Shown one piece after another: positions 11,826 through 33,099 of a DNA stretch of 64,000 nt. Position 1 is the stretch's first letter. Each line of letters opens with the position of its first letter. Below the pieces are notes generated by a model, which saw only the letters and a program-made list of their open reading frames with translations, was not told where the DNA came from and made no database searches. The position numbers and the translations under genes were made by a program. The stretch comes from Prochlorococcus marinus str. MIT 1013 (GTDB taxonomy: Bacteria > Cyanobacteriota > Cyanobacteriia > PCC-6307 > Cyanobiaceae). Where the stretch lies: positions 1,302,001-1,366,000 of the forward strand of contig NZ_CP114778.1 of the NCBI RefSeq assembly GCF_027359395.1, written 5' to 3'.

Positions 11826-12605
11826 TTAAAGTAAGAAAGGTAATCTTTTACTCTCAAAATTGAGTAACCTAATCGTACAAAATAGTCCTATCAAATTAAA
11901 TAGTAAAAGTAAGATTGAATTTTGATAATTTATAGAGCCATTAATAATACTATCTCTAAGAGGATCTAAAATCTGATAAATAAAGTTTAAATTTGTAATC
12001 CACTCTAAAGCTCCTAAGCTTTCTTTCCTATAAAGTATTGGTGAAATCAAAAAAACCAACTGAAGTACTATAGGAACCAACTGTGCAAAATCTGTAAATC
12101 GAACGCTAATTAGACAAATTATTACAGGGAACCAATATATAAAAATAAATAAATTCAAAAATGGTATCCATGAATATATTAATACATTACTTATCAATGA
12201 AAATTTTAAAAAAAGAAATACAAAAAAAACTAATATGAAAGACTGAACAAAAGTTTGTAATTGAAAAGACCATTCTTCTAAAGTATAAAAAATAGGCTTT
12301 AGATTCATATTCTTAATATTCGATGAATTATATGAAAAAAGATTAGGTGAATTAGAAATTGATGCACTGATTGTATTCCAAATAACCAAACCAAAGCCTA
12401 AGTATATAAAGTAAGACTTAAAATCTTCTACTGAAAAAACTGTACCATAAACAATTCCTAAAGTACCTATAGATAATAGATTTGAAAAACCTAACCAAAA
12501 ACTTCCAAGGGTGGTTCTAGCAAACCTTGCTCTTGATCTTGAAGTTGCTGTATACCACCATGCCTTCCTAGTTTTAAAAGCAAATTTAAAATTATCAAAT
12601 AACAT
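11826..12605 (-). CDS. polysaccharide ABC exporter permease (Wzm/KpsM-like)
   Basis: An ABC-2 type membrane protein of 259 residues with about six predicted helices. The N-terminal part (ARFARTTLGSFWLGFSNL, TLGIVYGTVF) and the C-terminal reentrant region (QLVFLISPILYRKESL, LNFIYQILDPLRDSIING) are typical of permeases that export lipid-linked O-antigen or capsule, such as Wzm, RfbA and TagG. Its start overlaps the end of the ATPase gene by 11 bases, so the two are translated together and form the exporter. It would move the finished glycan across the inner membrane. Confidence 0.88.
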   Translation of the reverse strand: MLFDNFKFAFKTRKAWWYTATSRSRARFARTTLGSFWLGFSNLLSIGTLGIVYGTVFSVEDFKSYFIYLGFGLVIWNTISASISNSPNLFSYNSSNIKNMNLKPIFYTLEEWSFQLQTFVQSFILVFFVFLFLKFSLISNVLIYSWIPFLNLFIFIYWFPVIICLISVRFTDFAQLVPIVLQLVFLISPILYRKESLGALEWITNLNFIYQILDPLRDSIINGSINYQNSILLLLFNLIGLFCTIRLLNFESKRLPFLL

Positions 12606-13968
12606 TTTGACGATAATAGTCTTGAGTATGATAATAATTCAAAGCCGCATCTAAAGGACCATCATATGCAATAGAACCATGACTAAAAACAATTCCTCTA
12701 TTACAAAACTGTTTTAAAAGTTCTTCAGAATGACTAGCTAAAAACAAAGTTGCAGCTGATTCCATAAATTGCTTCATTCTCTCTTCAGCACGATCACAAA
12801 AATCAGCATCACCAGTACCAAAGCCTTCATCTATAGCTAAACAATCATGAGGACTTGAAGTGAGAATTGAAAAAATTAATCTTGCAGACATACCCTCACT
12901 ATAGGTTTTTATAGGTAAAGAGATATATGAACCAAGTCCTGAAAAATCTACTATTTCATCTATAAAAGATTCAAATCCATCTAGGCTATGGTTTTTGAGT
13001 AAATAATGAGCTTTGCACGCATCAACTCCAGAAAGTTCTGAACTAGTCAAAAAAGTCTTTTGAAGCATAGGATAAACATCAACTAACACTCTAATACTTC
13101 CACTGGTAGGCAAATAAATACCCGAAATCAGCCTTAAGAAACTACTTTTTCCAGACCCATTATGACCAATCAAGCCTACCCTCTCTCCTTTCATAATAGT
13201 CAAACTAATATTATTTAGAGCGATAATATTAGTCCTATTCCTTGATTGATCCAATGCTCCACCTGTAATATTTATTACTTTTTTTGTAAGTTTTTTGGTT
13301 AAAGATCTATTTTCTAAATGATAGATAGGAATAGATAAAGAAATATTTTTAATTTCTATAGCAGTATTATTAAGATTGCTTATTGAGGCTTTAGATAATA
13401 AAGAAATCATATTTTTTACCTTATCAATAGAGACTCTCTTATAGGTAATATTATTTAGAAAATTAGATACTCGAATGAATGATTTCCCTGATCGCCAAGG
13501 TGAGATAGAATCGGGTTGATACAAATCAATTAAAGATATACTTTTACTAATTTGCTTTGTAAATAATTCTGCAGCAAAAATCTTATTCTCCAATATTTGA
13601 TAATCTTTTCTTTCTTGTTCAAAATTAATTAAGTAAGGTTTTTGCCTTGAAGAAACTAATTCAAATACAATATCTGCAATTTTATAATCATGTCTATTAA
13701 CCATCTCCATCCAATAATTCAAACCATCAAAATCTGCTTTTCTATGAAATAAATTTGAATATAATTTATTAATCTTAAATTCAAAAGATTTATCATGAGC
13801 AATATATTTTGTATACTCATCTTGCCTTGAAAGTTCATCAGATATTTGTCTTAAAGTAAATGATTCATTACAGCGTGAAAGCCAATAATTTATACCTGAG
13901 GGATCTCCTGGTCTTCCAAAATAGGCTATATATAGTTTTTGTAAATCATTCGAACCAACCTTAATCAT
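12595..13968 (-). CDS. DUF4214-type domain fused to polysaccharide exporter ATPase (Wzt/KpsT-like)
   Basis: A 457-residue fusion. Residues 1 to about 195 resemble DUF4214: YIAYFGRPGDPSGINYWL, RQDEYTKY, LFHRKADFDGLNYWMEMV, KIFAAELFTKQI. Residues 200-450 are an ABC ATPase of the Wzt/KpsT type with Walker A GHNGSGKS (about 263-271), the signature YSEGMSARL, Walker B LAIDEGFGTGD and the H-loop ASHSEE. The C-terminal carbohydrate-binding domain that gives E. coli O9a Wzt its chain specificity is missing; the protein stops about 30 residues after the H-loop. There is no signal peptide, so the whole protein is cytosolic. The same N-terminal region opens the large surface protein at 23844-27986. It pairs with the permease gene directly downstream. 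Confidence 0.88.
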   Translation of the reverse strand: MIKVGSNDLQKLYIAYFGRPGDPSGINYWLSRCNESFTLRQISDELSRQDEYTKYIAHDKSFEFKINKLYSNLFHRKADFDGLNYWMEMVNRHDYKIADIVFELVSSRQKPYLINFEQERKDYQILENKIFAAELFTKQISKSISLIDLYQPDSISPWRSGKSFIRVSNFLNNITYKRVSIDKVKNMISLLSKASISNLNNTAIEIKNISLSIPIYHLENRSLTKKLTKKVINITGGALDQSRNRTNIIALNNISLTIMKGERVGLIGHNGSGKSSFLRLISGIYLPTSGSIRVLVDVYPMLQKTFLTSSELSGVDACKAHYLLKNHSLDGFESFIDEIVDFSGLGSYISLPIKTYSEGMSARLIFSILTSSPHDCLAIDEGFGTGDADFCDRAEERMKQFMESAATLFLASHSEELLKQFCNRGIVFSHGSIAYDGPLDAALNYYHTQDYYRQNVI

Positions 13969-17043: not shown

Positions 17044-18093
17044 ATGAAGACGGCACTAATAACAGGCATTACAGGACAAGATGGTAGTTATCTTGCAGAA
17101 TTATTATTAAAGAAAGGTTACACTGTTCATGGCATAGTCAGAAGAAATAGTGTATCAAATACATTAAGGGTGAAAAACATTGAAGATAAAATTAAATTAC
17201 ATTATGGAGATCTAACTGATAGTCTTAATATTGTAAGAATAATAGATGAAATTAGGCCTGATGAAATTTACAATTTAGGTGCACAAAGTGATGTGGCTGT
17301 TAGTTTTCAATCTCCTGAATATACAGCGCAAACAGATGCATTAGGACCACTTAGAGTGCTTGAATCAGTAAGAGTACTAAATCTTATTGATAAAACAAAA
17401 GTTTATCAAGCTAGTACTTCTGAACTTTTTGGAAAGGTGGTAGAAAGTCCGCAAACTGAAAACACTCCTTTTTATCCTAGAAGTCCATATGGTGTAGCAA
17501 AATTATATGCTTACTGGATAACAATTAACTACAGAGAATCTTATGGAATATATGCATGTAATGGTGTTCTATTTAATCACGAATCTCCAAGAAGAGGAGA
17601 AACATTTGTTACTAGAAAGATTACTAAAGGCTTAACTAGGATTGACGCCGGGCTACAAGAATATATAGAGATGGGAAATCTTGATTCATATCGAGATTGG
17701 GGACATGCGAAAGATTATGTAGAGATGCAATGGAGAATGCTGCAACAAGATAAACCTGAAGATTATCTAATTGCTACTGGGCAACAAGCCAGTGTAAGAG
17801 AATTTATCAATTTGTCTGCTATACAATTAAATTGGGGTGGAATACAATGGGAAGGCAAAGGTATAAATGAAATTGGAAAAAGATTAGATACCGGCGAAAT
17901 CGTAATTAGAATTAATTCTAATTATTTTCGTCCAGCAGAAGTTGAAACTTTACTCGGAGATCCTCGCAAAGCATTTCTAAAGTTATCTTGGACCCCCAAG
18001 ATAACTTTAGATGAACTAATCTCAGAAATGATTATCGAAGACAAGAAGCAAGCTCAAATTGAATTGTATCTAAAGAAAACAAATTCTAATTAA
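17044..18093 (+). CDS. gmd: GDP-mannose 4,6-dehydratase
   Basis: Converts GDP-D-mannose to GDP-4-keto-6-deoxymannose, precursor of GDP-fucose, GDP-rhamnose and perosamine. The 349-residue extended SDR has the nucleotide-binding motif [16 protein letters not shown] at 7-22, the arginine pair of VRRNSVSN for NADP, the catalytic STSELFGKV, and [10 protein letters not shown] with Y149 and K153. [17 protein letters not shown] is the diagnostic Gmd segment. It is a full-length copy. No fucose synthase (fcl/wcaG) is next to it, so the final sugar is open. It stands alone between secA and the secretion operon on the same strand as the latter. Confidence 0.95.
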
Positions 18094-18276: not shown

Positions 18277-18348
18277 ACGGCTATCCGATCTGTACGTAAT
18301 CTCCTCAATTGAATAGTTTTGCTAAGGATTTCTTATTTAATTTTAAAA

Positions 18349-18531
18349 ATGGCAAAAATTACAATTGATGGAACAGAGTACGACACAGATGAACTTTCTG
18401 AAGACTCCAAAGCTAATCTAGCAAGTTTACAATTTGTAAGATCTGAACTTAACAGACTTCAAGCTCAAACTGCTGTTTACAAGACTTCAGAAGTGGCTTA
18501 TACTAATGCATTAAAGCAATCAATTAGTTAG
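18349..18531 (+). CDS. small DUF6447-like protein
   Basis: A 60-residue acidic protein starting at the ATG at 18349 (MAKITIDGTEYDTDEL). The upstream in-frame codon at 18319 adds a poorly conserved hydrophobic stretch and is rejected. The pattern is a short beta hairpin carrying ITIDGTEYD, then a long helix (SLQFVRSELNRLQAQTAVY, ending in YTNALKQ). I associate this pattern with DUF6447, a family of unknown function, from memory. It is the first gene before a parvulin-like protein, an ABC transporter and a HlyD adaptor in the same direction, so it may help type I secretion. A perfect hairpin follows its stop codon. Confidence 0.75.
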   Translation: MAKITIDGTEYDTDELSEDSKANLASLQFVRSELNRLQAQTAVYKTSEVAYTNALKQSIS

Positions 18532-18537
18532 CTTCAG

Positions 18538-18567
18538 GATGTATTATTATCTTTATAATAATACATC
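18538..18567 (+). repeat. perfect 12-bp stem-loop between the first two genes of the secretion operon
   Basis: GATGTATTATTA (18538-18549) and TAATAATACATC (18556-18567) are exact reverse complements around a six-base loop. There is no T-run after the stem, so it is not a standard intrinsic terminator. It could stabilise the mRNA of the small gene or reduce read-through so that the small protein is made in excess. Confidence 0.6.
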
Positions 18568-18584
18568 GCGTTCGTTAATAAAAA

Positions 18585-19316
18585 ATGAATAGTCTTATTT
18601 GCTTGAATAAAGCAAGCATTGATTTACTTAATAAACATGGTTTATTGAGAAATTTAATAAGTGCAGAAATATTAGAAAATTCAATAAAGGAGGTTTCACT
18701 TTCAGACATACAAAAGGAAAGAGCTTTTACTAGATTTTGTAAAAGTAATAATTTATCAACCAAAGAATCTCTTGATAAATTTCTCGAGAAAAATTCTTTG
18801 ACAATAGACACACTTAACCAAACATTACAGATCTCTTATAAAAAAGCTCTTTACTCAATAGACAAATTTAGTGGTAGAGCTGAGAGCAGATTTTTAGAAA
18901 GAAAAGAAGAACTTGATTCAGTAATATATAGTTTAATAAGAGTGAGAGAGAAATATAAAGCCCGAGAAATATGGGTTCAAATTAACGAAAAAGAATCTGA
19001 ATTCAGTGATATGGCTTCCAAGTTTTCTGAGGGGCCAGAGAAAATGAAGCAAGGTATTATTGGCCCAGCCCCTTTAATCCAAGCAAACCCAAAAGTATGT
19101 GAGACACTCAGATCTCTCGAGCCTGGCGAGTTAGCTCAGCCAATTTTTCTAAATGGATTTTACCTAATTATAAGACTTGAAAAATATTTTCCAGCCACCT
19201 TAGACGAAGAAACAAAGAAAGCCATGGCGATAGAACTCTTTGAGAAGTGGTTAAAGGAAGAGACAGAGCTTATGCTCAATGAGATACTTTCTTCGACAAA
19301 AACTCCAATCACATAA
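18585..19316 (+). CDS. parvulin-like peptidyl-prolyl isomerase
   Basis: A 243-residue protein. The N-terminal 110 residues are helical, like the chaperone part of SurA/PrsA-type proteins. Residues about 120-210 look like a parvulin domain: FSDMASKFSEGPEKMKQGIIG, LRSLEPGELAQPIFLNGFYLIIRLEKY. There is no signal peptide and no lipobox, so it should stay in the cytosol, unlike SurA. A cytosolic foldase in front of a type I transporter could hold the large secreted protein in an export-ready state, since these substrates must leave unfolded. The next gene begins four bases after its stop codon. Whether it has isomerase activity or acts only as chaperone is not visible. Confidence 0.8.
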   Translation: MNSLICLNKASIDLLNKHGLLRNLISAEILENSIKEVSLSDIQKERAFTRFCKSNNLSTKESLDKFLEKNSLTIDTLNQTLQISYKKALYSIDKFSGRAESRFLERKEELDSVIYSLIRVREKYKAREIWVQINEKESEFSDMASKFSEGPEKMKQGIIGPAPLIQANPKVCETLRSLEPGELAQPIFLNGFYLIIRLEKYFPATLDEETKKAMAIELFEKWLKEETELMLNEILSSTKTPIT

Positions 19317-19320
19317 AAAT

Positions 19321-22281
19321 ATGACAAAAAAACACGATATAAATCTTAGAGAGATTGAGGGTTTTAAAAACATCAATGAAGAGTCAATTGAAAAAATAAA
19401 CGAAAACAGTGAATTACTTCAATATGATTTCAGTCAAGTATTATCAACCTCTCAGATTATTTCTAATAAAATACTTTTTTTACTTGAAGGTGAAGCAAGG
19501 TTACTAATACAAAATGAAGAAAATCTGATTACATTAGATAAATTGAAAAGCCCAACAACAGTTGGGCTTATTTCTCTACTACGTGCTGAGCCTTGCGAGG
19601 AAGTAAGCGCAGTTTCAGACGTCACCGCAATAGCTATTCCAGACAAGTTAATACTAGAAATATATCAAAATGATCAAATATTTAGAGATTGGTGTAATAA
19701 ATTAATTTACTCTGTTGAAATTTATTCAGTCCTATCTAGATGTAATATAGAATACCTTAAATCTGGCATAAACCAAGATATTATATTTAGTTTAATCAAA
19801 TCCAACTCAAATATAAAGACTTATACAAATAACGAATTAAGTATCACGAAGAAAAATTATTTCAGCTTTATAAGTAGTGCCAATTTAATAGATTTAAAAC
19901 CTGGCGACTTACTAAACAATAATCAGAAGATAGAATCTAGACCTCCAATGAATGTTAGAGTACTAGAAGTTTCAAAAGATGTAGAACATTTAATAGAAAA
20001 ACTTAGCACTAACAAGTCAAACTTGAATCAAAATATAGAAACGACCGGATCACTGAATACAAAAAATAATATCTCGAAAGCGCCAATTGCTCCCTACGTC
20101 AGTGCTATTGAGTTAGGAAATTACAGTACTAATCAACCATTCACAATCATCAAAGCAAATGGGAAGTTAGAAGAAACACTAGCCTGTTTACAAATGCTAT
20201 CTTCTTTCATGAAGCTTCCATTCAGGAAAGATAGTATTGAGAAAATTCTTCGAGATACAGTATCAAGGAACCAAACTATATCTATTGAGTTGTGTGGTGC
20301 AATTGCTTCAATGCTTGGCTTACATACAGCAATTGCAAATAAAGTTAATTTTATTGCAGCAACAAGACTTCAAACACCATGTTTAATTACGTGGAAAGAT
20401 AGTTTTGCAATAGTCACAAAAAGCGATTCAAGTGGTCTTGAAATAGCATCTCCAAGTGCAGGTTCAATAAGAATCGAGCAAGATAATCTTGAAAATGAAT
20501 TCCCAGAAGGATTTGATATTTTAATGGTAGATAGAACAAATGCAACGCCCAATAAAAAGTTTGGAGTCAATTGGTTCTGGCCATCTTTAAAGAAATATAG
20601 AGCAAGTCTCATACAAGTTTTAATCGCATCTTTTGTCGTTCAACTTTTCACTTTAGCTAACCCTTTATTAATACAAGTTATTATTGATAAAGTCATTTCT
20701 CAAAGAAGTCTAGATACTCTTCAAGTTTTAGGAATTGCTCTTGTTGTTGTTACAATAATTGGTGGTTTAATTAGTAGCCTGCGAACATTTCTATTTACTG
20801 AAACAACCAATCGCATTGATGTAAGGTTAAGTGCAGAAGTTATCGATCATCTTTTAAGACTCCCATTAAATTATTTTGATAAAAGAGCAGTTGGTGAATT
20901 AGGAAGCAGAGTTGCAGAATTAGAACAAATTAGAAACTTTTTAACAGGTCAAGCCCTAACGACGATACTTGATGCTGCTTTTTCAATTATTTATATAGTT
21001 GTTATGGTTATGTATAGTTGGCTTTTAACTATAGCCGCCTTATTTGTAGTCCCTATTCAAATAGGTCTGACACTTTTAGGTGCTCCAATAATTAGAAGGC
21101 AAATTAGAGAAATAGCAATAGAGAATGCAAAAACCCAGAGTCATTTAGTAGAAGTATTAACAGGTGTACAAACAGTTAAAGCACAAAATGTTGAAACAGT
21201 TAGTAGATGGAAATGGCAAAATTTTTACAAAAAATATATTTCAAGGTCATTTGAAAAAACAATTACAGGAACAACACTTAGTGAGATAAGTAATGTGATG
21301 CAACAGTTATCTCAATTAATAGTATTGTGGATTGGTGCAACATTAGTTTTAAAAGGTCAGCTTACTTTAGGTCAATTAATTGCATTTAGAATAATCTCAG
21401 GTTATGTGACACAACCATTACTTAGGTTAAGTACTATTTGGCAAAATGTACAACAATTAAGGGTTTCGTTTGAACGTTTATCAGATATTATTGATACTCC
21501 AGAAGAATCAAGTGAGGCAGATAAAGCTAATTTGACATTACCAACTATAGAAGGAAAAGTATCATTTAAAAACGTCTCATTTAGCTTTCCAAATAGTGAT
21601 AAAAAAATACTTTCTAATGTTTCGCTAAATATTAAACCTGGCACTTTTGTAGGCATTGTGGGTCAGAGCGGAAGTGGTAAAAGCACATTGATGAAACTTT
21701 TGCCTAGGTTATACCAAACAAATTCAGGTAAGATTTCAATAGATAACTATGACATAGATAAAGTTGAACTATATTCTTTGAGACGACAAATTGGGATTGT
21801 TCCTCAAGACCCATTACTTTTTGCAGGAAGCATTAGCGAAAATATTTCTTTAGCAGATCCAAATGCGAAAAGTGAAGATATTGCTAATGCAGCAAGGATT
21901 GCATCCGCTCATGATTTCATAATGGATTTACCTCTTGGATATAGTAATGACGTTGGAGAGAGAGGATCTGGACTTTCAGGGGGGCAAAAGCAAAGAATAG
22001 CAATTGCAAGAACAATTATGAGTAATCCAGGAATGATTATTTTAGATGAAGCAACAAGTGCTCTTGATTATGAGACAGAGAGAAAAGTATGTGAAAATTT
22101 GAGAAAATCATCCAAAGGTAAAACAGTATTTTTTATTACACATAGGCTATCAACCATAAAGAATGCGGATCTAATAGTTATGCTTCATGATGGTGTAATA
22201 GCTGAAACTGGTACTCATACAGAGCTAATAAATAGAAAAGGCCGTTACTTTGCACTTTATCGTCAACAAGAGTCAACTTAA
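19321..22281 (+). CDS. type I secretion ABC transporter with cNMP-binding-like and degenerate C39-like domains (HlyB-like)
   Basis: A 986-residue transporter. Residues about 10-130 have the beta-roll pattern of a cyclic nucleotide-binding-like domain (ILFLLEGEARLLIQNEENL, VGLISLLRAEPCEEVSAVSD). Residues about 270-400 form a C39-like domain (ISIELCGAIASMLGLHTAI, LQTPCLITWKDSFAIV) that lacks the catalytic cysteine motif of bacteriocin exporters, as in HlyB. Membrane helices span about 425-720. The ATPase has GQSGSGKS near residue 781, LSGGQKQRIAIARTI near 885, LDEATSALD and FFITHRLS. I start at ATG 19321; an earlier ATG at 19279 would overlap the PPIase gene by 38 bases. It overlaps hlyD by one base. 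The outer membrane TolC partner is not in this window. Confidence 0.92.
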   Translation: MTKKHDINLREIEGFKNINEESIEKINENSELLQYDFSQVLSTSQIISNKILFLLEGEARLLIQNEENLITLDKLKSPTTVGLISLLRAEPCEEVSAVSDVTAIAIPDKLILEIYQNDQIFRDWCNKLIYSVEIYSVLSRCNIEYLKSGINQDIIFSLIKSNSNIKTYTNNELSITKKNYFSFISSANLIDLKPGDLLNNNQKIESRPPMNVRVLEVSKDVEHLIEKLSTNKSNLNQNIETTGSLNTKNNISKAPIAPYVSAIELGNYSTNQPFTIIKANGKLEETLACLQMLSSFMKLPFRKDSIEKILRDTVSRNQTISIELCGAIASMLGLHTAIANKVNFIAATRLQTPCLITWKDSFAIVTKSDSSGLEIASPSAGSIRIEQDNLENEFPEGFDILMVDRTNATPNKKFGVNWFWPSLKKYRASLIQVLIASFVVQLFTLANPLLIQVIIDKVISQRSLDTLQVLGIALVVVTIIGGLISSLRTFLFTETTNRIDVRLSAEVIDHLLRLPLNYFDKRAVGELGSRVAELEQIRNFLTGQALTTILDAAFSIIYIVVMVMYSWLLTIAALFVVPIQIGLTLLGAPIIRRQIREIAIENAKTQSHLVEVLTGVQTVKAQNVETVSRWKWQNFYKKYISRSFEKTITGTTLSEISNVMQQLSQLIVLWIGATLVLKGQLTLGQLIAFRIISGYVTQPLLRLSTIWQNVQQLRVSFERLSDIIDTPEESSEADKANLTLPTIEGKVSFKNVSFSFPNSDKKILSNVSLNIKPGTFVGIVGQSGSGKSTLMKLLPRLYQTNSGKISIDNYDIDKVELYSLRRQIGIVPQDPLLFAGSISENISLADPNAKSEDIANAARIASAHDFIMDLPLGYSNDVGERGSGLSGGQKQRIAIARTIMSNPGMIILDEATSALDYETERKVCENLRKSSKGKTVFFITHRLSTIKNADLIVMLHDGVIAETGTHTELINRKGRYFALYRQQEST

Positions 22282-22592
22282 TGAAAAAAGAGATTAACAA
22301 AAATGATGGTTCAGTAAACCAATCTAAAAAAGATGCAACTACAAAGAGAGATTTTATAAATCAAACTAAGTCAGTATTGACATGGATTGAGAAAAAATTA
22401 AACAGTAGAGAATCAGATAAATCAAAAGTAAAGATAATGAAACAAGAAATTAAACAAATTGATAGTTCAGAAAGCCATTCTGAAACAGATAAAACCAGAA
22501 GAAAAGATTATCTAAATCAAACCAAGTCAGCAATTGCATGGATTGAGAAAAAGCTAACCAGTAGAAGCTCAGAAGAAACAATACTCAGCCAA
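22281..22592 (+). repeat. in-frame tandem duplication (two units of 156 bases) in hlyD
   Basis: Unit 1 is 22281-22436 and unit 2 is 22437-22592. Their translations match from the initiating methionine (MKKEI / MKQEI) through NQTKS and WIEKKL to the serine-arginine stretch. The nucleotide sequences have diverged, mostly at third positions, so the duplication is not recent. Confidence 0.8.
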
Positions 22593-23471
22593 TCTCAATA
22601 CTGGACAAGAGCAATCACGTGGTCATTAATTGGTACCACTGCTTTTGGTGTTGGATGGTTATTTATAGCTAAAACCGAAGAAATAGTAATTGCTACCGGC
22701 AAACTAGAACCAATTAAAGGAGTCGTGGACGTTCAAATGCCACTAAAAGGAGTTGCTAAGGAGATCTTGGTAAAAGAGGGCGATATAGTGAAAGAAGGGC
22801 AACTCTTAATCAGATTAGATTCAGAAATAACTAATAGCCAATTCGCTTCTATACAGCAGAGATATGAATTAAACAAAAATATCCTTAACAGAATGGAAAA
22901 ACTAGTTGATGAAGGCGCAGTAGCGGAAATTCAATATTTAGAGCAGAAAAATAAAATGATCGATTTAAAAAGCAAATTAACAGAAAGCGAAGTAATACTT
23001 AAATATCAGAAGATTTTATCTCCAGTCGATGGAAGAGTATTTGATCTAAAGCCATGGGGGCCAGGTTATGTAGCTCAATCTAGCGAGCCAGTTCTAAAAA
23101 TAGTTCCATTTGATAATTTGCACGCTAAGGTTGAAATTGAAAGTAGAACAATTGGTTTTGTTAGTTTAAATAAGCCAGTAGATGTAAGCGTAGATTCATA
23201 CCCAGCAACAGATTTTGGAGTAATAACAGGAAAGGTTGTAAAAATCAGTTCTGATGCATTACCACCAGATCCAAGATTAAACAAAGGATATAGATACCTT
23301 GCGAATATAGACTTAGACAAACAAGCTTTAAATACTAAACAAGGGATAAAACTTGCATTACAACCAGGAATGAGCATAACAGCCAACATAAAACTTCGAA
23401 AGGTCTCTTACTTACAGCTTCTTTTAGGAACATTCAAGAACAAATCAGATTCATTAAGAGAGATCAATTAA
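22281..23471 (+). CDS. HlyD family type I secretion adaptor with duplicated N-terminus
   Basis: A membrane fusion protein of 396 residues that would link the ABC transporter to an outer membrane channel. After a long cytosolic N-terminus there is one transmembrane helix (about 108-126, SLIGTTAFGVGWLFIA), then the biotinyl/lipoyl halves (VVDVQMPLKGVAKEILVKEG and ILSPVDGRVFDL) around a short hairpin of only about 60 residues, and a beta-barrel region ending near LQPGMSITANIKL. The N-terminus carries a tandem repeat: residues 1-46 and 53-98 align throughout, with NQTKS followed by WIEKKL in both. Each copy begins with methionine, so translation could also start at 22437. The coiled-coil hairpin is shorter than in E. 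coli HlyD. Confidence 0.9.
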   Translation: MKKEINKNDGSVNQSKKDATTKRDFINQTKSVLTWIEKKLNSRESDKSKVKIMKQEIKQIDSSESHSETDKTRRKDYLNQTKSAIAWIEKKLTSRSSEETILSQSQYWTRAITWSLIGTTAFGVGWLFIAKTEEIVIATGKLEPIKGVVDVQMPLKGVAKEILVKEGDIVKEGQLLIRLDSEITNSQFASIQQRYELNKNILNRMEKLVDEGAVAEIQYLEQKNKMIDLKSKLTESEVILKYQKILSPVDGRVFDLKPWGPGYVAQSSEPVLKIVPFDNLHAKVEIESRTIGFVSLNKPVDVSVDSYPATDFGVITGKVVKISSDALPPDPRLNKGYRYLANIDLDKQALNTKQGIKLALQPGMSITANIKLRKVSYLQLLLGTFKNKSDSLREIN

Positions 23472-23843: not shown

Positions 23844-26800
23844 TTAGTAGAAAGCCATGTTGGAAGTACTGAATGTACCAGTAACATCAAGAACCGATAC
23901 AAGAGTTACATCATCATCTCCTGTCATAACGGTATTGGTATTAGCAGCGTGGGCGTCAATTTTGTAAACACCAACTTGCGTACCAGCAGCATTTTGAACA
24001 GCAACGAATGATGCATCATCAGCAGTGGAGTGTACCGCGCCAAGAGCAGCGTAGAAACCAGCTTCTGAAGTGAAATCATTAAGCGTTGCACCAGTTAGTA
24101 GAGCAAAACCAGCACTAGTAGATGAGTTGAAGGCACCACTAGCAACTGAACCTACAATTGCTGGAGTGACTTCAATATCACCAGTAGCGACTGCAATTTG
24201 GTCTTTAGTTGCATCGAAGTCAGTAATTCTAACTGCGTCAGCAACTATAGCGGTGAAGGAACTTGCGCTATCAGAGTGCAAGTTACCTGCGTCCTCACCA
24301 CCGATTCTAACAATGTCAACACCAGTTCCAGTTGCGATACTAAGTGTACCTGCAGCGTTGGTTGCGAAGGTTTCAATAGTATCGTTACCTGATGTACCAA
24401 CGATACTTGTTGAAGTCATCGCTGAAGTAGTGATACCACCTAAGTTTATAGATGCAGCCGCATCCATGTTATAGGTAAGGGTAGCGTTAGTGTTACCAGT
24501 AATTGAGTTTATAGCTCCAGCAAAGAAACCATTATCAACTGTGAGGTTTATACCAGCTGTTAGGGCTACATCATCAAATTGAGAAGCAGTGATTGTTACA
24601 TGTGAAAGGTCAACAGTTTCAGTGATAGCGATGTCAGTGCCTGCATCACCAACAAGAGTAACCGCTGTGGAACCTAAGGTTGCTGCATCTAACGTAAGGT
24701 CACCATTACCAGCATTAGTAGTAATAGTATCGAAACCACTAATTGTTGTGTTGCTAAGGTCAACTGCGTTGTTAGCAGCACCAACTCCATTAATTGTCAA
24801 GTTTGAATCGCCACCACCAGTAACAGTAGTGAAGTTAGTAGCTGAGAAGTCAGCTTCATCAACTGTAAGTGTCTGGTCTGTTCCACCGATTGTCACTGTA
24901 TCGATGTTTGTAATCGTATAGAGCGAGATGTTGTCGGAATCGTTGAAATTGATCCTAGTAACGACGTCTGCGAATTCACCGGTTACACCACCAGCGAAAC
25001 CAGTGAAGTCAGCCGCATCAACAGTAAGAGTCTTAGCTAGGGTATCAGCTGTGTTTAGATCAAGAGTACTAGAAGCTGTAGTAGCCAATGTTATTGCAGA
25101 GAAGTCATATGTTCCTCCAGCAAGTTCGATGGTATCTACACCACCAGCATCTAAATCAAGACTAGTTACGTCAGTTAAGTTGTCGGTATCAAATTCGTAT
25201 AAAACAGCCTCATTTACAGTGACAATGGTCTCAATCTTACGAAGGGTAATAGGCTTAAGGTCTACTGTTCCACCAGTAAGAGTTAGAGACTGAGTAGAAG
25301 TAGATACACCAGTGATGCTATTAGTCTCAGCAGCTGTTAAATCAGCCACATTCATTGTGATGCCTGAGATGTTACCGCCAAGTGTCATCGTCTCAACGTC
25401 GCTATATGCGATTCCGGAGAAACTAAATGTTGTACTAGGAGATGCGGCTGTGACATTAATAGTGTCATCACCTCCTTTACCATCAATTGTTGAACCTGCT
25501 AGGTGAGCAACAGTAGTAACAATAGTGTCATCTTCGTTTGTTAGGGCCTTGCCTTCAGTGAAGTGAGTCTTAGTTGCTGTATTGAAAGCTGCTTGTTTTG
25601 AAGTAGCTGTCACACCACTTCCTAATGTTAGGTCTGAAGATGTAATAGAGGTAACTCCATCGAGCTTGACCTGAAAATCAGTAGCACCTTCTAGAACTGA
25701 GTCTTCATCAATGTCAACCCAAAGAGTACTGGTGGCTGCGTTGAATACTGCAACCTTTGTTCCGTCAAGTAAACCTTGTGCTTCAGAGAAACTTGCTCCT
25801 ACACCAGCAAACTGGGAACTAGAAATAATTCCAGCGAGACCAGAATTTAGAGCAAGTCCAGTTAGGTCAATATCATCTGAACCGCTTACAAATCCCTTAA
25901 CTGTGTCTCTATCAGTATCTGACTGGAGTTTCGCTGTGTAAACAATAGTGTCTTCACCACCTTGAGAAAGGTCAATGGTGTCAGCACCAGTTGCAGTTGC
26001 GAAAGTTAATGTGTCATTAGCAGAACCTAATGTGATTGTAGCTCCACCTTTAGCAAAGTCAGTCCCAGAAATAACTACTTTATCTGTAGCAGCACTAGCA
26101 TCTAGTGTTGCAAGAACTGGAGTTGATGGGTCTGTTGTAGCTGTAAGTGTAATTTCTGAATCACCACTTAAAACAATACTAGTTGCGTCTGATGCAACCA
26201 AAGTAGCGATGGTGAAAGTACCTTTCGCATCTGTGGTGTCATCGTCGACTGAAATATTCAGAGTTTCAGCATCAGCAGCATTCAGTGTTGCAATTCCTTC
26301 ACCGGCTGCAACTGCGTCTATCGCAACAGTTACAACATCAGTTGATCCATCAGTCTTAAGGTCGACAACTAAAGAACCATCAGCAGCTACAAGGTTGGCC
26401 GCATCAACTTCAACAGTTATGCCTGAAACAGCATCATCAACAGTAGCTGTACCATTCGCAGTGATACCAGCGTCGTATACAACTCTAGTGATACCAGAGA
26501 AACTATCCATATCGATAGTTCCTGTACCTGAATCTGAGACTGTTAAATTCTCAACGCTAGATAAAGTTCCATTGATAGTTCCTGAAGCAACTGCCTGAGT
26601 CAACTTGATTGAGTCAGTTCCATCTCCTCCAGTGAAACTATCGCTTGCTTCGAAACCATCGGTAAAGTCTGCTGTGTCATTACCAGATCCACCAGTAACA
26701 ACAACATCCTTAGTTGTTGTATCAGAATCAACTACAACGGAAAGATTTCCAGTAAATGCATTAGCATCGATCGTAGTTACACTGGCAAGCGCTCCAGAAA

Positions 26801-27986
26801 TAGTTAGGTCTTTATCTCCAGTAACATTAAGAGTAGTTAAACCACCAGCTATTGTTGTGATTTCACTTGCGGCGCCTGAAGAATTGACGTTAACAGTCTC
26901 AACTCCTGCAGATGAATTATTACCTAATGTGATAGTACCAATGGAACCACCAGCAGTAGTTACGTTTCCATCAAGGTTAAGGGTGATAGCGTCTGAAGAA
27001 CCCTTTAAAAGATCATCGTTGAACTTGATTGTTGTATCGCCAGCCTGAACATCTTTCAATTCAACAGTTGTTAGAGCTTTCAATCCATCTACGGTTACAT
27101 CAGTAGTAGAGAGAGTGTTTATAACTGTGCTTACATCTGTAGAACCAGTAGCAGTGAAAGTAGTACCGCCAGTTGCATCAGATTGAATTTTGAGAGTCTC
27201 AACAGATGAGGTTGTAAAACCGTTCTCCGTTACCGCAGCAGCACCAGTAGCTGTATATCTAAGAGTATCTGTACCTGAACCACCAGTTAATGAATCACCA
27301 GTTGTCAATGTAGCGTTACTTCCTACGAAAGTATCGTTGTAAGCTCCACCAGAAACTGAATCAACTTTGTCAGTTAGAGTTACAGTTGTTCCCGTTGTAG
27401 TAGTACTTGCAGAAGTCATGTCAGAGACTGCTGTATCAACGGCTGCATCTGTCGCAGCAGTTGAAGTTACAGTCGCTAGCCATGTTTTTGCTGAATCAAA
27501 AGCTGCACCGGCTTTAAAGTCTGCTCCAGTTGTCTCAGGCACATAAGCAAGAATCGCAGCAGTATCAGCTTTTACATCAGCTGTGAATAATTCAGCTGCT
27601 GCAACCTTATTGGTGAGAGCTAATGCATCAGCTGCACCTTGTACTTCGTTACCTTCTATTGGGTTAGCAGTTGACCAAATCAAATCAAGAGCAAGACTTG
27701 AAAGAGATTTTCTACCAGCCTTAACTTCGCCAGTCCAGAAGAGTAATCCTTCAGCTTCTGCTGACCGACCAAAAAGATTTATAAATAACGAATTTACTTG
27801 ATCTTGTTCCGACTTTGAAGCGATAGTTGTGTTCTTATATTCGTCCTGAGCGTAAATTTTTTCAGCAAATTCAGTTTCAGTAAGGCCACTTTCTAACCAG
27901 AAAGTAATTCCTGTTGGATGTCCAGGCCTTCCAAAGTAAGCGATGTACTGTTGTTGAAGCTGGGTAGTAGTTAGTGTTGTTGACAT
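23844..27986 (-). CDS. large RTX/S-layer-like surface protein with N-terminal DUF4214-type region
   Basis: A 1380-residue protein rich in T, A, S, D, G and V, with almost no cysteine. I start at ATG 27986 (MSTTLTTTQLQQQ); a TTG at 28079 lies inside the leader and is rejected. Residues 1 to about 200 are DUF4214-like (YIAYFGRPGHPTGITFWL, AQDEYKN, LFGRSAEAEGLLFWTGEV, NKVAAAELFT). The rest is beta-strand repeats with scattered RTX-type pieces (LTGGSGTDTL, VTGGSGNDTADF, FTGGDGTDSI). There is no N-terminal signal peptide, and the C-terminus (VTLVSVLDVTGTF..) fits a type I secretion signal. Cargo of the adjacent transporter by inference. Base composition is visibly less AT-rich and codon choice more uniform than in the neighbours, as in highly expressed genes. 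Confidence 0.88.
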   Translation of the reverse strand: MSTTLTTTQLQQQYIAYFGRPGHPTGITFWLESGLTETEFAEKIYAQDEYKNTTIASKSEQDQVNSLFINLFGRSAEAEGLLFWTGEVKAGRKSLSSLALDLIWSTANPIEGNEVQGAADALALTNKVAAAELFTADVKADTAAILAYVPETTGADFKAGAAFDSAKTWLATVTSTAATDAAVDTAVSDMTSASTTTTGTTVTLTDKVDSVSGGAYNDTFVGSNATLTTGDSLTGGSGTDTLRYTATGAAAVTENGFTTSSVETLKIQSDATGGTTFTATGSTDVSTVINTLSTTDVTVDGLKALTTVELKDVQAGDTTIKFNDDLLKGSSDAITLNLDGNVTTAGGSIGTITLGNNSSAGVETVNVNSSGAASEITTIAGGLTTLNVTGDKDLTISGALASVTTIDANAFTGNLSVVVDSDTTTKDVVVTGGSGNDTADFTDGFEASDSFTGGDGTDSIKLTQAVASGTINGTLSSVENLTVSDSGTGTIDMDSFSGITRVVYDAGITANGTATVDDAVSGITVEVDAANLVAADGSLVVDLKTDGSTDVVTVAIDAVAAGEGIATLNAADAETLNISVDDDTTDAKGTFTIATLVASDATSIVLSGDSEITLTATTDPSTPVLATLDASAATDKVVISGTDFAKGGATITLGSANDTLTFATATGADTIDLSQGGEDTIVYTAKLQSDTDRDTVKGFVSGSDDIDLTGLALNSGLAGIISSSQFAGVGASFSEAQGLLDGTKVAVFNAATSTLWVDIDEDSVLEGATDFQVKLDGVTSITSSDLTLGSGVTATSKQAAFNTATKTHFTEGKALTNEDDTIVTTVAHLAGSTIDGKGGDDTINVTAASPSTTFSFSGIAYSDVETMTLGGNISGITMNVADLTAAETNSITGVSTSTQSLTLTGGTVDLKPITLRKIETIVTVNEAVLYEFDTDNLTDVTSLDLDAGGVDTIELAGGTYDFSAITLATTASSTLDLNTADTLAKTLTVDAADFTGFAGGVTGEFADVVTRINFNDSDNISLYTITNIDTVTIGGTDQTLTVDEADFSATNFTTVTGGGDSNLTINGVGAANNAVDLSNTTISGFDTITTNAGNGDLTLDAATLGSTAVTLVGDAGTDIAITETVDLSHVTITASQFDDVALTAGINLTVDNGFFAGAINSITGNTNATLTYNMDAAASINLGGITTSAMTSTSIVGTSGNDTIETFATNAAGTLSIATGTGVDIVRIGGEDAGNLHSDSASSFTAIVADAVRITDFDATKDQIAVATGDIEVTPAIVGSVASGAFNSSTSAGFALLTGATLNDFTSEAGFYAALGAVHSTADDASFVAVQNAAGTQVGVYKIDAHAANTNTVMTGDDDVTLVSVLDVTGTFSTSNMAFY

Positions 27987-28116
27987 CGAATGTAAAAGAG
28001 TCAGAGCTTTTAGATAGGGGACTCCGCAATTGCGGTGCGGGTGCCGAGAACCCTGTCTTTGGGTCTGGCATTGATGCAATTGGTTACTGCATGAAGCAAT
28101 TACCTATTGCAGTAGG
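27987..28116 (-). promoter_or_regulatory. structured 5' leader of the surface-protein gene
   Basis: About 130 bases with higher GC than the surrounding spacer. It holds a perfect palindrome CCGCAATTGCGG (28024-28035) and three blocks read on the minus strand as ACCC (28061-28064), GGGT (28050-28053) and ACCC (28039-28042), so the middle block can pair with either neighbour across seven-base loops. A TACTGCA/TGCAGTA stem lies at 28085-28114, at the 5' end of the leader. It does not match any riboswitch consensus I know. Function is inferred from position. Confidence 0.45.
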
Positions 28117-28129: not shown

Positions 28130-28477
28130 CACGCAGACAGGATCAAGTAAATAGGAACTCGTATTATCAGTAGTGATTTCAACACAAGTAATTAGGTACT
28201 AACCGACCACAGGGACCTTAATCTCTAAAGCATTAAAAAATCTATAAATCTAGTTATTGCAGGCACTCTAAGGATATTTGAAATTGTTAAGTTTGACAAA
28301 ACGATTCAGCTTTTTACCTAATAATTTCCATAAAAAAAGGATACACTAATTTAACTGTCACATAGAATTTATTCAATTCTCACAGTGGTTTTCGAATTTT
28401 TTTGATCTTCGTGTTTTTCTTATTCAATGAGATAAGAATAATTAGTGAAATCAATTCGCCAATCAGAATTATTAATT
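28130..28477. other. non-coding spacer between divergent surface genes
   Basis: About 350 bases between the leader of the large protein gene and the gmd-like gene. It becomes more AT-rich towards the right, with TTTTT and ATAAG tracts near 28390-28440. I see no ORF above 25 codons with a plausible start, no tRNA and no insertion sequence. It must hold the promoter of the gmd-like gene. Confidence 0.5.
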
Positions 28478-29440
28478 ATGAGACCCAAAGCACTTGTCAT
28501 TGGATGCTCGGGACAGGACGGTTCGTATTTATGCAAGCATTTACTTGGTCACGGTGAAAAAGTTATAGGCACATCAAGAAGTAACAATTGTACTTTTAAA
28601 AACCATCTTTTACTTGGAATCAACGACAAGTTTCCCATAAAAGCTATTAATCTTTTTGATTTAGGTGAATTAAAAGAACTTTTGATTAAAGAAAACCCGA
28701 CTCATATATATAATTTTTCAGCCCAATCATCCGTAGGCTATTCTTTTAGTAATCCAATCGAAACGCAAAAAAGCATTTCACTAGTCACTATTAATTTATT
28801 AGAGGCGTGTAGACAAATTTCATATAGTGGAAATATTTTTTTTGCAGGAAGTAGTGAAGTGTACGGTAATACAGAAATGGCTGCCAAAGTCGAATTTCCC
28901 TTCGACCCACAAAATCCTTATGCGATTGCGAAAGTAGAGAGTATGTATCTGATTAAATTATATAGAGAAATATATAACTTACGAGCTGCAACCGGGGTAC
29001 TGTTTCCACATGAATCACCACTAAGAAATGAAAATTTTATAATTCATAAAATCATCGCTGGAGCTGTTGAATGTACAAGAAACAAATCGCATAAAATAAC
29101 TATTGGGAATATCAATATAGAAAGAGATTGGGGCTGGGCTGAAGAATATATAAAAGGAGTACACAAAATGAATAACCTTAAAATTTTTAAAGACCAAATT
29201 ATTTGTACTGGTGAATCGACAAAGTTAGAAGAATTTATTAATATAACTTTCAATAAATTAAACTTAAATTGGAAGGAACACGTTATTGTTGATAAAAGTC
29301 TATTTAGAGGAAAGGATATCAATAAAAGTATTGGTGATCCTTCACAAATGTTTTTAGATAGCAATTGGAAAGCAACTATAAAAATTGATCAGATAATTGA
29401 AAGGCTGCTGGAGAGTAAGATAAATAAGTCTCCATTTTAA
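28478..29440 (+). CDS. GDP-mannose 4,6-dehydratase-like NAD(P)-dependent epimerase/dehydratase
   Basis: A second extended SDR enzyme of 320 residues, diverged from the gmd at 17044. It has VIGCSGQDGSYLCKHLLGHG, SAQSSVGYSF, SSEVYGNTEM with a serine-serine-glutamate catalytic block, and NPYAIAK with Y148 and K152. LFPHESPLRNENFIIHKI corresponds to the Gmd segment [17 protein letters not shown]. The shorter length and altered RxR region suggest either a GDP-mannose dehydratase with different partner enzymes or an enzyme on a related NDP-sugar. I start at ATG 28478; the GTG at 28445 adds eleven residues that lack family features. It converges on the glycosyltransferase gene three bases later. Confidence 0.85.
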   Translation: MRPKALVIGCSGQDGSYLCKHLLGHGEKVIGTSRSNNCTFKNHLLLGINDKFPIKAINLFDLGELKELLIKENPTHIYNFSAQSSVGYSFSNPIETQKSISLVTINLLEACRQISYSGNIFFAGSSEVYGNTEMAAKVEFPFDPQNPYAIAKVESMYLIKLYREIYNLRAATGVLFPHESPLRNENFIIHKIIAGAVECTRNKSHKITIGNINIERDWGWAEEYIKGVHKMNNLKIFKDQIICTGESTKLEEFINITFNKLNLNWKEHVIVDKSLFRGKDINKSIGDPSQMFLDSNWKATIKIDQIIERLLESKINKSPF

Positions 29441-29442
29441 TT

Positions 29443-32400
29443 TTAATTAATTTCCAAGCTCTTAATCATTTTAAATAGTCTTTGACTAACTTTAGAGAAA
29501 CTTCTATTATTAATGAGATCAATTTTTTTTGCCTCTAAAACCTCGGTATAATGCCTAGACATATTTGCAGATTCGATAACGTTCAAAATACCATTAGCTA
29601 TATCTTGAGGTGAAAACCCTTTCAGCCTATGAACCAAATCAGAGACATCATCAAATATTGGTAAAGGTGTTACTAAAACAGGTCTTAAAGTTGAAAGACC
29701 ATATCTAACTGCAGCACTCGAGGATTCATTTGAGAACTGATAAGGGAATATTAAATAATCATTGTGACTTAATAGATCTAATGATTGATTATCCGTCATA
29801 TATTTTGAATTAATTGTAACAAATTCTGATAGATTTAAAGTATTAACTAAATCAATTAATTCATCAAAAGTGCTTTGATAATTTTGATTATAAATCGCAG
29901 AATATATACTTAAATTGATATTTAAACCTTTTTTGATAAGCAAATTTGTAGCTAATATTAATTCTTTGAATCCTTTATTCGGCAGACAAAAGCCATAGGA
30001 TCCAATATTTAAAGTTTTAGAAGTTGAAGAAGATATATCTATTGATTTTATTTTTTTGTACTGATATTTATTACATAAAAGTGGATGAGGAAGTAAGCAT
30101 ACATTATCTATTAAACCAATTTTTTTAAGTCGATTTAAATCGCTTATAGTATGAACAATTAGTCGTTGACATTTGCTAAAAGCATCAAATAATAAAGAAA
30201 GTTTTTTTGAATGATCGTCCTCTGGGTCAATCGTAGAATGAAGAATAATGAATATATTAATATCTCTCTTATAGATTGTATTAATAAATTTAGATAAACA
30301 TTCAAAGTCAAAAAAACCATAATTAAACTGAATAACCAAAGAAGTTATATTAGAAGTAAATACTCTTTGTGCGAGGTCTAAAAGTTTATCCTGATCATCC
30401 CAAGAAGGAAAAACTTTTTCTCCCTTAATCGGAGACAACTCTTCATCATAAGGAGTAAAAAATAAAACTTCATCATTTATAAATTTAAATAAATTCTTAG
30501 AATATGAAGCGATTCCACATTTTGAGTTCCATGTAGTAATACATCCTAACTGGGTTTTATGATTATTAAATACAGAAAGTTCATTGTTAACGAAGTTCAA
30601 ATTATTTTTGGCAACTTCATCCCAGGTGAAATTATTAATTTCCTCTTTTGCTTTAAGAGTTTTCTTTTTTAAGACTTTAGGATTAGCATCATAGACTTGT
30701 CGTAATAAATAGCTTAAGTGATCTACTGAAGGTTCAGCCCAATATGAACTATCTAAATTAAAATGAGATTTAGATGGAACAAAATCATAATCAATTAGCC
30801 AACTATTATCTTCATTACAAAAATCCAGCTGTCCTCCCCAATTAGTTGTTACAACTGGAACTCCTATCCTCATAGCTTCACCAATGGGAAGTCCAAAGCC
30901 TTCTCCTCTACTCGGTGCTACTAGCATGTCTATTTTTAAAAAGAGTGCTTTAATTTCTTGATCAGTTAAATCTTTTTTAATTAATAAAACATGAGGAAAT
31001 AAAGGATTAGAAGAAATTAATTTTTGAATTTGCTGATCTACATTATTATGAGGATTATCGAAAGTTTTAATAATTAAAGTAATATCATCATTAATGGAAA
31101 AAGATTTCTCATATGCCTTAAGTAAGATATCAATACCTTTCCTAGGAAAACAAGAAGATATGTGTAAAATCTTATAATTTTTTACATCTAAAGCATCTAA
31201 ATTATAACCTCTATCTAATTCATTATCTTTTGTACTATCTAAATGATCTAAACCCAAGCCAGTTACTTGAATAGGGATACATACACCATTATCAATGAGT
31301 ATCTTTTTAACCTGTGAAGACATAACTGTTATTCCCTGCAAGTAACTATTAAAATCATCTACCCAATTAGAAGGGAATTCTGATTCTTCCCATCCATAAC
31401 AATGAAGTAAATTAAATTTAGAACTCAGGTCATGAACTCTTGGAGGATAAAGATTGCGGCTCACCACATCGGTAATTAGATTTGAGTTAAGCGAATTTTT
31501 ATACAAAGAATAGATTTCAGTATATTTGCTCAAAAAAGGAAGATTAGGCTCATAGTCACCAGGTCCCTCTGTTATGTGTATTGAAAGATTATCTATTAAT
31601 TTATGCATTGAATTTATAAAACACCTATTTAGAATGGCTAAACTGTATGATGAATCGATAGGACCTTCAATTCTCCAAGATAGATTATTATTTTTAGTTG
31701 ATATTTTCCTGGCTAGGTTATCTAATTCACTAGTATTTTTATCAATAGAAGCTGCTACTTGAAAATGAAATTCTTCATCAGTAATTTTTCTAAATAATTT
31801 AAACTTATTGAGCTTTTGTATTAATAAATTCAACTGTTCGATATTATTTATAGAAATAGTTTTCCAATCTAATAAATGAGATTTTGGTTTACTTGAATCA
31901 ATTATAATTTTACAAGCATTTACCGCAGCCTTTGCTGTACTCTTCCATGAAAACTTTTGACTTTGTTTAATTGAATTTGCTTTGAGAAAATAATTAAAAT
32001 TCTTATCTAACAATGCCCTTGTAATTAAATTGCTAATTTGATCGACATCTTTTGGATCAAACATTGCAGATTCAAGCTCTATAACCTCAGGAATACTTGT
32101 AGTATTTGAACCTATAACAGGTGCCCCGCAACACATAGCCTCTAAGACAGGCAAACCAAATCCTTCATGTAAAGAAGGAAAAACAAACAAAGAACATTTT
32201 CTATAAAGTTCTACCAAATCAAAATCCGTTACATAACCTATATGAACAATCTTATCTGAATCAATATTGAATAATTTTATCCAAGAATTCAGAAGTTCAG
32301 ACTCAGCCTTTAATAATTTACCAACAAGAACTAATTTATATGTACGAAGTTCCATTGGAAGCAAACTATAAGCTTCTAAAAGGCTTTTAACATTTTTTCG

Positions 32401-33099
32401 TGGGTCATTAGCACCAGAATATAAAATAAATGGAGTATAATCACTAACATCAATTAAATTAGAAGTCTCTATCTGAGTAAAAGTATTAAAAGTCTTTTTA
32501 TCACATGCAGATGAAATATTAAATATCTTATTTTGATGATAACGTAAATGTTTCTTTGCTTCTTTTAAAGCTGAATTTGAAATAGCTAATAATCCATCAA
32601 GATTTCTAATCTTTTTAATCTTAGATCTATAATACTTTTCAAAATCTGGATTATTGTTTAAATATAAATCTGGATTGATTAAAGGTATTAAATCATAAAA
32701 TATTGCTACTGTTGGTACATCTAGAATATCATAATCAAAATCAACACAGCAATTGTCAGAAAAGCCTTCAAAATAACTTGTAATTAGAATAATATCAACA
32801 TGGAGACAATTAAATACATATGACCTTAAAAATATAGCAAGTTTAGTTTTTATTTTATCCATCGAAACATAATCATATGGAGCTGGTGAATACCATTGAA
32901 GATAAGTAACATTACCATTATCAATATAATTTTTTAAATCTAATCTAATGTCAAATAGTAAAGAGTTAGCAACTAGAATTATTTCATCTTCTGGATGTTC
33001 TTTGATAATATTTTTAATCACCTCTAAAGAATATCTACCAATGCCCCGTGTCCGACTACCTTCACTTTGAACACCTTGAAGATCTATGGCAATTCTCAT
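29443..33099 (-). CDS. multi-module glycosyltransferase (three GT-B/GT4-like units)
   Basis: A 1218-residue protein with three consecutive GT-B modules. Module 1 (about 1-400) has YSGANDPRKNVKSLLEAY and EGFGLPVLE, an E-x7-E motif at E312 and E320. Module 2 (about 470-830) has LHISSCFPRKGIDILLKAY and EGFGLPIGE with E733 and E741. Module 3 (about 840-1218) keeps NSKCGIASYSKNLFKF, IGSYGFCLPNKGFKELI and GLSTLRPVLVTPLPIFDDV, but its E-x7-E is broken (ESSSAAVRY). Multi-module enzymes of this shape, such as WbdA of E. coli O9a and WsaE, polymerise O-chains with two or more linkages. It overlaps the methyltransferase gene by four bases. Cytosolic, probably membrane-associated through its partner. Confidence 0.88.
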   Translation of the reverse strand: MRIAIDLQGVQSEGSRTRGIGRYSLEVIKNIIKEHPEDEIILVANSLLFDIRLDLKNYIDNGNVTYLQWYSPAPYDYVSMDKIKTKLAIFLRSYVFNCLHVDIILITSYFEGFSDNCCVDFDYDILDVPTVAIFYDLIPLINPDLYLNNNPDFEKYYRSKIKKIRNLDGLLAISNSALKEAKKHLRYHQNKIFNISSACDKKTFNTFTQIETSNLIDVSDYTPFILYSGANDPRKNVKSLLEAYSLLPMELRTYKLVLVGKLLKAESELLNSWIKLFNIDSDKIVHIGYVTDFDLVELYRKCSLFVFPSLHEGFGLPVLEAMCCGAPVIGSNTTSIPEVIELESAMFDPKDVDQISNLITRALLDKNFNYFLKANSIKQSQKFSWKSTAKAAVNACKIIIDSSKPKSHLLDWKTISINNIEQLNLLIQKLNKFKLFRKITDEEFHFQVAASIDKNTSELDNLARKISTKNNNLSWRIEGPIDSSYSLAILNRCFINSMHKLIDNLSIHITEGPGDYEPNLPFLSKYTEIYSLYKNSLNSNLITDVVSRNLYPPRVHDLSSKFNLLHCYGWEESEFPSNWVDDFNSYLQGITVMSSQVKKILIDNGVCIPIQVTGLGLDHLDSTKDNELDRGYNLDALDVKNYKILHISSCFPRKGIDILLKAYEKSFSINDDITLIIKTFDNPHNNVDQQIQKLISSNPLFPHVLLIKKDLTDQEIKALFLKIDMLVAPSRGEGFGLPIGEAMRIGVPVVTTNWGGQLDFCNEDNSWLIDYDFVPSKSHFNLDSSYWAEPSVDHLSYLLRQVYDANPKVLKKKTLKAKEEINNFTWDEVAKNNLNFVNNELSVFNNHKTQLGCITTWNSKCGIASYSKNLFKFINDEVLFFTPYDEELSPIKGEKVFPSWDDQDKLLDLAQRVFTSNITSLVIQFNYGFFDFECLSKFINTIYKRDINIFIILHSTIDPEDDHSKKLSLLFDAFSKCQRLIVHTISDLNRLKKIGLIDNVCLLPHPLLCNKYQYKKIKSIDISSSTSKTLNIGSYGFCLPNKGFKELILATNLLIKKGLNINLSIYSAIYNQNYQSTFDELIDLVNTLNLSEFVTINSKYMTDNQSLDLLSHNDYLIFPYQFSNESSSAAVRYGLSTLRPVLVTPLPIFDDVSDLVHRLKGFSPQDIANGILNVIESANMSRHYTEVLEAKKIDLINNRSFSKVSQRLFKMIKSLEIN

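Follow-up and report, generated by a model that had tools for sequence, protein, structure and literature searches.

The window comprises 64,000 nucleotides (positions 1302001-1366000 of a 2.05 Mb one-contig Prochlorococcus genome), and gene coordinates below are those of the window. Four genes on the forward strand face a fifth on the reverse strand, with gaps of 53, 4 and -1 bases between the four in the ORF listing; all five are present as an earlier note on this DNA had stated. The first encodes a small acidic protein of 60 residues with a pI of 4.6 (18349..18531, +), inside a listed frame at 18319-18531. It is followed by a SurA/PrsA-like protein of 243 residues (18585..19316, +), referred to here as the PPI, in which Pfam and a predicted model place a parvulin-fold domain between roughly residues 111 and 200. 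The third gene encodes a type I secretion ABC exporter of 986 residues (19321..22281, +) with cNMP-like, C39-like, transmembrane and ATPase parts, its ATG at 19321 lying within a longer frame from 19279. The fourth encodes a HlyD-type membrane fusion protein of 396 residues (22281..23471, +) whose N-terminal tail has a unit of some 45 residues duplicated in tandem. The reverse-strand gene (23844..27986, -) encodes a probable cargo of 1380 residues. Upstream of the small gene lies gmd, assigned by Pfam to the GDP-mannose 4,6-dehydratase family (17044..18093, +), whose distances track the exporter block.

An AT-rich strong hairpin is predicted at 18539-18566 (+) in the spacer between the small gene and the PPI gene, and the spacer folds at -14.1 kcal/mol. 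As a conserved element it was rejected: of 25 spacers folded, most had a weak hairpin or none, with a strong counterpart at locus L029 and different strong hairpins at L039, L042 and L048. Beside the cargo gene stand a second GDP-mannose dehydratase-like gene (28445-29440, +) and a gene for a 1218-residue protein with two group 1 glycosyltransferase stretches (29443-33099, -). Elsewhere in the window, an ABC ATPase of 457 residues (12595-13968, -) matches DUF4214 towards its N-terminus, as the cargo does; next comes the gene for an ABC-2 type permease (11826-12605, -), giving a polysaccharide-type exporter with a domain common to the surface protein.

The ABC protein passes the Pfam cut-offs for ABC_membrane (173.9 bits, cut-off 28), ABC_tran (115.8 bits, cut-off 25) and Peptidase_C39 (25.7 bits, cut-off 22), and carries the intact ATPase motifs GQSGSGKST, LSGGQKQR and ILDEATSALD. 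Residues 301-998 of the longer frame matched the HlyB model TIGR01846 with 706 bits, narrowly missing the curated cut-off of 725.55. The protein had been described as a cNMP/C39-type transporter. The C39 domain is present, but its cysteine is lost: the site of the catalytic Cys is Glu in the window protein and in 51 of 74 ABC proteins, and Cys in one of the 74. Peptide cleavage by this domain was rejected as a candidate function, the site being without Cys. The cNMP-like domain stayed below threshold (cNMP_binding, PF00027, 21.1 bits against a Pfam cut-off of 27.5) and its usual contacts are changed; of the two ligand contacts, Glu and Arg, the Glu is replaced by Leu in 42 of the 74 proteins. 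At the usual Arg position, within residues ~79-95, there is a conserved Cys-Glu (Cys in 62/74, Glu in 70/74).

The membrane fusion protein matched HlyD_3 in Pfam (62.1 bits, cut-off 22.2) and scored 144.1 bits with the HlyD model TIGR01843, under the curated cut-off of 208.65. The duplication in its N-terminal tail, already reported in the earlier note, was confirmed by a local score of 128 compared with a highest score of 53 in 1000 shuffles. In five of 26 HlyD tails from the genus (the window, L029, L033, L043 and L052) internal repeats outscored all 100 shuffles, and the repeat units differ from one tail to another. The N-terminal tails of L033, L043 and L052 are Lys-rich and predicted to be cytosolic. 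A TolC-type gene is present in the same genome, where PF02321 matches twice within one 545-residue frame (G000:C1:1615476-1616702).

The cargo frame extends over 23844-28079 (-); from a start reading MSTTLT it yields the 1380 residues, which are Thr-rich and acidic (pI 4.05), contain no Cys and have a DUF4214 match near the N-terminus (25.5 bits, Pfam cut-off 23.2). The label of RTX cargo fits weakly, as four RTX-like nonapeptides are present but no RTX family is matched. A cargo-like match was obtained at eight of 26 genus loci, some of which are cut short. We regard this protein as the probable cargo of the neighbouring exporter.

The PPI matched Rotamase in Pfam (31.4 bits, cut-off 21.7). 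Its model (pLDDT 91.0) resembles PrsA and SurA in structure alignments (6vj4, Z 16.6, rmsd 7.2, 200 aligned; 6xd8, Z 15.8, rmsd 1.5, 93 aligned), and the domain superposes on parvulins such as 1yw5, 6xd8 and 1f8a with an rmsd of 1.2-1.9 over approximately 90 residues. Catalysis was judged by the two conserved active-site histidines of parvulins, using E. coli SurA as the yardstick for both positions and PpiC for the second. The window protein has neither. Among 79 distinct homologues the first histidine is found in none (Leu in 70), and the second is missing in all 79 or in 71, depending on which of two neighbouring alignment registers is used; in the other eight a His lies one place earlier than the second position, where HMMER places it. 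Both histidines are missing in at least 71 of the 79. The fold, the Rotamase score and the eight homologues with a His beside, or at, the second position would all suit a working isomerase acting on the prolines of the cargo, but the first histidine is absent throughout, whereas Tyr115, Gly160 and Pro161 are invariant, and we consider such an activity improbable. We conclude that the PPI probably does not work as a normal isomerase. An escort role is the likelier one because the active-site histidines are missing from the homologues. Inspection by eye revealed no signal peptide in either of the first two proteins, as had been claimed for the parvulin. The designation 'cytosolic parvulin' is apt for the fold and the domain match and presumably for the location, but probably not for a normal parvulin enzyme. 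Similarity of the PPI to TIGR04500 is weak (37.3 bits against a curated cut-off of 180), and homologues scored 54.6 and 27.1 bits.

The small protein is predicted to form a β-hairpin and one helix of 42 residues (pLDDT 95.1, pTM 0.65). Foldseek returned a single PDB match for this model (E 7.9), which does not establish a new fold. The earlier note had called the protein DUF6447-like, a relationship that the window protein alone did not demonstrate (no Pfam match at E<=1, the PF20045 cut-off included) but that its relatives support: PF20045 was matched by 20 of 27 orthologues at E<=1, with a best value of 2.2e-8, its cut-off was exceeded at the orthologous places in G030, G002, G012 and G008, and hhalign aligned the small-protein profile with DUF6447 over 60 columns (probability 95.5, E 1.6e-8). 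These profile comparisons identify the small protein as a divergent DUF6447 relative.

Canonical DUF6447 was found in at least 136 of 151 family genomes and at least 94 of the 95 good ones, and the class sample contained it in 21 genomes, all of Cyanobiaceae. A same-strand ABC exporter lies within 0.4 kb upstream of the canonical gene at 29 of 30 loci; in the genome studied here this neighbour is MsbA-like, below the cut-off of that model. Given its small size and the operon-like spacing with an exporter, the window protein might itself be the exported substrate or signal, but it has no Gly-Gly leader, the C39 domain of the exporter is without its catalytic Cys, and the paralogue is near-universal and mostly sited elsewhere. 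We consider it very improbable that the small protein is such a substrate or signal.

That DUF6447 genes as such are tied to type I genes did not hold, since family-wide most copies lie away from them, the outcome that the earlier note had named as refuting its reading: among the matches listed, two of 135 best copies fall within 20 kb of a PPI gene. Second copies, again among the matches listed, do so in five of 15 cases compared with an expectation of about 0.42, an approximate figure that takes 2.3 Mb per genome and ignores contig ends; without the window-type orthologue in G002 the count is four of 14 listed. Second copies occur in varied arrangements, some of them directly adjoining HlyD (L115, L121, L156 and L176); L133, L155 and L156 were drawn from ABC or PPI searches and are not independent evidence for a DUF6447 link. 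Twenty regions around DUF6447 matches other than the window type contained the full PPI-ABC-HlyD trio in four cases (L106, L112, L115 and L121) and the PPI with part of the ABC in one (L113); the other 15 were without the trio, and in two of these (L123 and L124) the neighbour is the ABC gene typical of canonical copies. Outside the genus, the small-protein profile matched in G131 and G212 with the nearest listed PPI 34 and 289 kb away, respectively, which argues against a fixed link between the small gene and the PPI. Taken together, a link of DUF6447 to export is suggested.

Several further features were seen around DUF6447 genes. Divergent copies adjoin very large ORFs at L111 (1413 residues), L119 (over 3147), L125 (1530) and L157 (1104, the DUF6447 here being a tandem pair); the L111 ORF, with FG-GAP and Calx-beta, is the only one of the four with Pfam matches at E<=0.001. 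A cyclophilin-type isomerase gene (L122:6911-8158) adjoins a 2295-residue frame with a DUF6447 gene near, a similar setting with another isomerase family. One base after the DUF6447 gene of L106, a 265-residue protein without a Pfam match is encoded (L106:8918-9715, -), and L110 has a possibly related gene after DUF6447, the resemblance being judged by eye.

Conservation was assessed by single-protein searches of 79 genomes, 41 of them of the genus. The small protein was found in 27, all within the genus and including the genome studied here. At all 26 further genus loci the small gene, PPI and ABC are consecutive on one strand, and HlyD follows at 25, the remaining contig ending inside the locus; the small gene lies from 0 to approximately 100 nt upstream of the PPI gene, with a 4-nt overlap in L052. 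This recurrence of order and strand across orthologous loci is beyond chance. A profile search of the 41 genus genomes detected the small protein in 28 and the PPI in 29, each in all 17 good genomes, and the 12 genomes without the PPI are all incomplete. The two genes are neighbours in 27 of the 29 PPI-bearing genomes. The earlier note was right that neither of the first two proteins belongs to the standard type I set. Within the genus both stay linked to the exporter. The two other genomes have lower-scoring, more distant PPI and ABC proteins: G027, of the same genus, has the trio but not the small gene, and in G007 the trio is more distant and a canonical DUF6447 gene converges on HlyD, a different contig carrying two copies in tandem.

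Beyond the genus the PPI is widespread. Its profile matched in at least 102 of 151 family genomes (at least 71 of 95 good ones) and in 146 of 194 class genomes, representing 91 of 109 genera. PPI, ABC and HlyD stand together at 20 of 20 loci sampled from other family genomes (20 of 150 listed places) and at 13 of 20 sampled from other cyanobacterial families, with the ABC split into two frames at one of the 13 (L186) and the PPI lacking these neighbours at the other seven. The small gene was found with the trio at none of the 20 sampled family loci and none of the 13 class trio loci, and an ORF listing of 27 loci from other genera, read by eye, disclosed no recurring small gene upstream of the PPI. 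Given the frequency of the trio in both samples, the PPI is a customary companion of this kind of exporter. The proposal that the parvulin marks a special variant at this locus was rejected, the trio being widespread and the PPI the usual neighbour of such exporters in cyanobacteria.

Pairwise distances were compared across 22 genomes. Those of gmd, the small gene, PPI, ABC and HlyD intercorrelate (small gene with ABC 0.42, PPI with ABC 0.83), whereas correlations with secA are slight (small gene -0.03, PPI 0.19); secA correlates at 0.87 with a gene on its other side. The simplest reading is a surface cassette exchanged as a block beside secA, in which case the small gene can travel with the exporter without sharing its function. 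Partial correlations with the small gene were 0.485 for gmd and 0.424 for ABC, values that make a co-varying block visible and in which function and linkage are inseparable; since gmd, a sugar enzyme, tracks the small gene no less closely than does the ABC, linkage may suffice. These distances, the standing of the trio elsewhere without the small gene and the upstream ABC exporter of canonical DUF6447 are what would be expected if an ordinary type I exporter with its usual PPI were accompanied by a small gene that is a passenger of the recombining cassette and acts elsewhere, for instance with an MsbA-like exporter, as its paralogue may. Two observations speak against a passenger: the excess of listed second DUF6447 copies near PPI genes, and the lower-scoring, more distant PPI and ABC of G027 and G007, whose PPI genes have no adjoining small gene. 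On balance we regard the passenger account, the chief alternative, as possible but rather unlikely.

The account that we favour, with somewhat better than even confidence as a whole, is type I secretion with a dedicated cytosolic PPI escort for a large surface protein. The ABC would power export of the large, acidic, Cys-free, DUF4214-bearing protein; it would do so without cleaving a leader, given the degenerate state of its C39 domain. The rest of the conduit would consist of HlyD and the TolC-type channel encoded elsewhere. The PPI, with its SurA/PrsA build, would bind either the cargo by itself or the cargo along with the ABC, and keep the chain fit for export, so that the cargo would be handled in the cytosol. 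The DUF6447-like small protein may be a lineage-specific accessory of the same escort step. In favour of this account are the adjacency of the trio, the lost histidine, the PrsA/SurA-like model, the weak likeness to TIGR04500, the close spacing of the small gene and the PPI gene, and the TolC-type gene; against it weigh the seven class loci where ABC and HlyD do not adjoin the PPI, the trios that lack the small gene, the scarcity of RTX motifs and of cargo-like matches, the tracking of the small gene by gmd, and the narrow miss of the HlyB model. A broader and doubtful extension would make DUF6447 proteins small adaptors of picocyanobacterial ABC exporters, the near-universal copy serving an MsbA-like exporter, and divergent copies having been drawn more than once into the service of type I systems or of giant secreted proteins, there to join the catalytically dead parvulin in a dedicated cytosolic complex that holds very large cargo.

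Accounts of type I secretion generally name three parts. Should a cyanobacterial version found across the class include a dedicated cytosolic SurA-like partner as well, the question arises of what holds a cargo of at least 1000 residues unfolded ahead of its export. In Prochlorococcus, a very abundant organism whose surface is exposed to phages and grazers, a cassette in which sugar enzyme, exporter and surface protein are exchangeable would bear on how such surfaces change. Motility mutants of Synechococcus WH8102 reportedly mapped to transport genes required for the placement of SwmA. A literature search that covered a minority of subscription papers turned up neither a treatment of the PPI-ABC-HlyD trio nor any use of the word DUF6447, and the layout, partly common in cyanobacteria, seems little studied. 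Cyanobacterial RTX surface proteins include SwmA and Sll1951 (PMC3034196).

The conduit is type I-like, and its proteins are not filed under the NCBIfam HlyB, HlyD or TIGR04500 families, whose curated cut-offs exceed their scores. The type I reading of the earlier note stands as regards exporter likeness, but not its 'undercharacterised variant' in so far as this rested on a PPI that is widespread. Like HlyB/HlyD/TolC, the system has a dead C39-like domain on the ABC, a HlyD, a TolC-type gene and a large acidic Cys-free candidate cargo; unlike it, the locus has a cNMP-like domain, SurA/PrsA-like and DUF6447-like genes, a cargo with few RTX motifs and a HlyD with a long tail containing a duplicated unit. 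The PPI shares with SurA and PrsA a predicted helical N-terminal part and parvulin-fold domain, and differs from them in having no signal peptide visible by eye, no active-site histidines and a gene tied to an ABC exporter. For TIGR04500, a report on its member MirC (PMC13097080) describes a required partner of a peptide synthetase for which a chaperone role is proposed, encoded in a cluster with a peptidase-containing ABC exporter, and gives its C-domain as unlike the PPIase domain of Cj1289. MirC and the PPI are alike as divergent PpiC/SurA-like proteins encoded beside a peptidase-domain ABC exporter; they are set apart by the TIGR04500 score given above, and no peptide synthetase was seen at the locus. 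Finally, the small protein is homologous to DUF6447 (PF20045) over the aligned columns, but its gene, rather than lying beside an MsbA-like exporter, stands in a type I operon.
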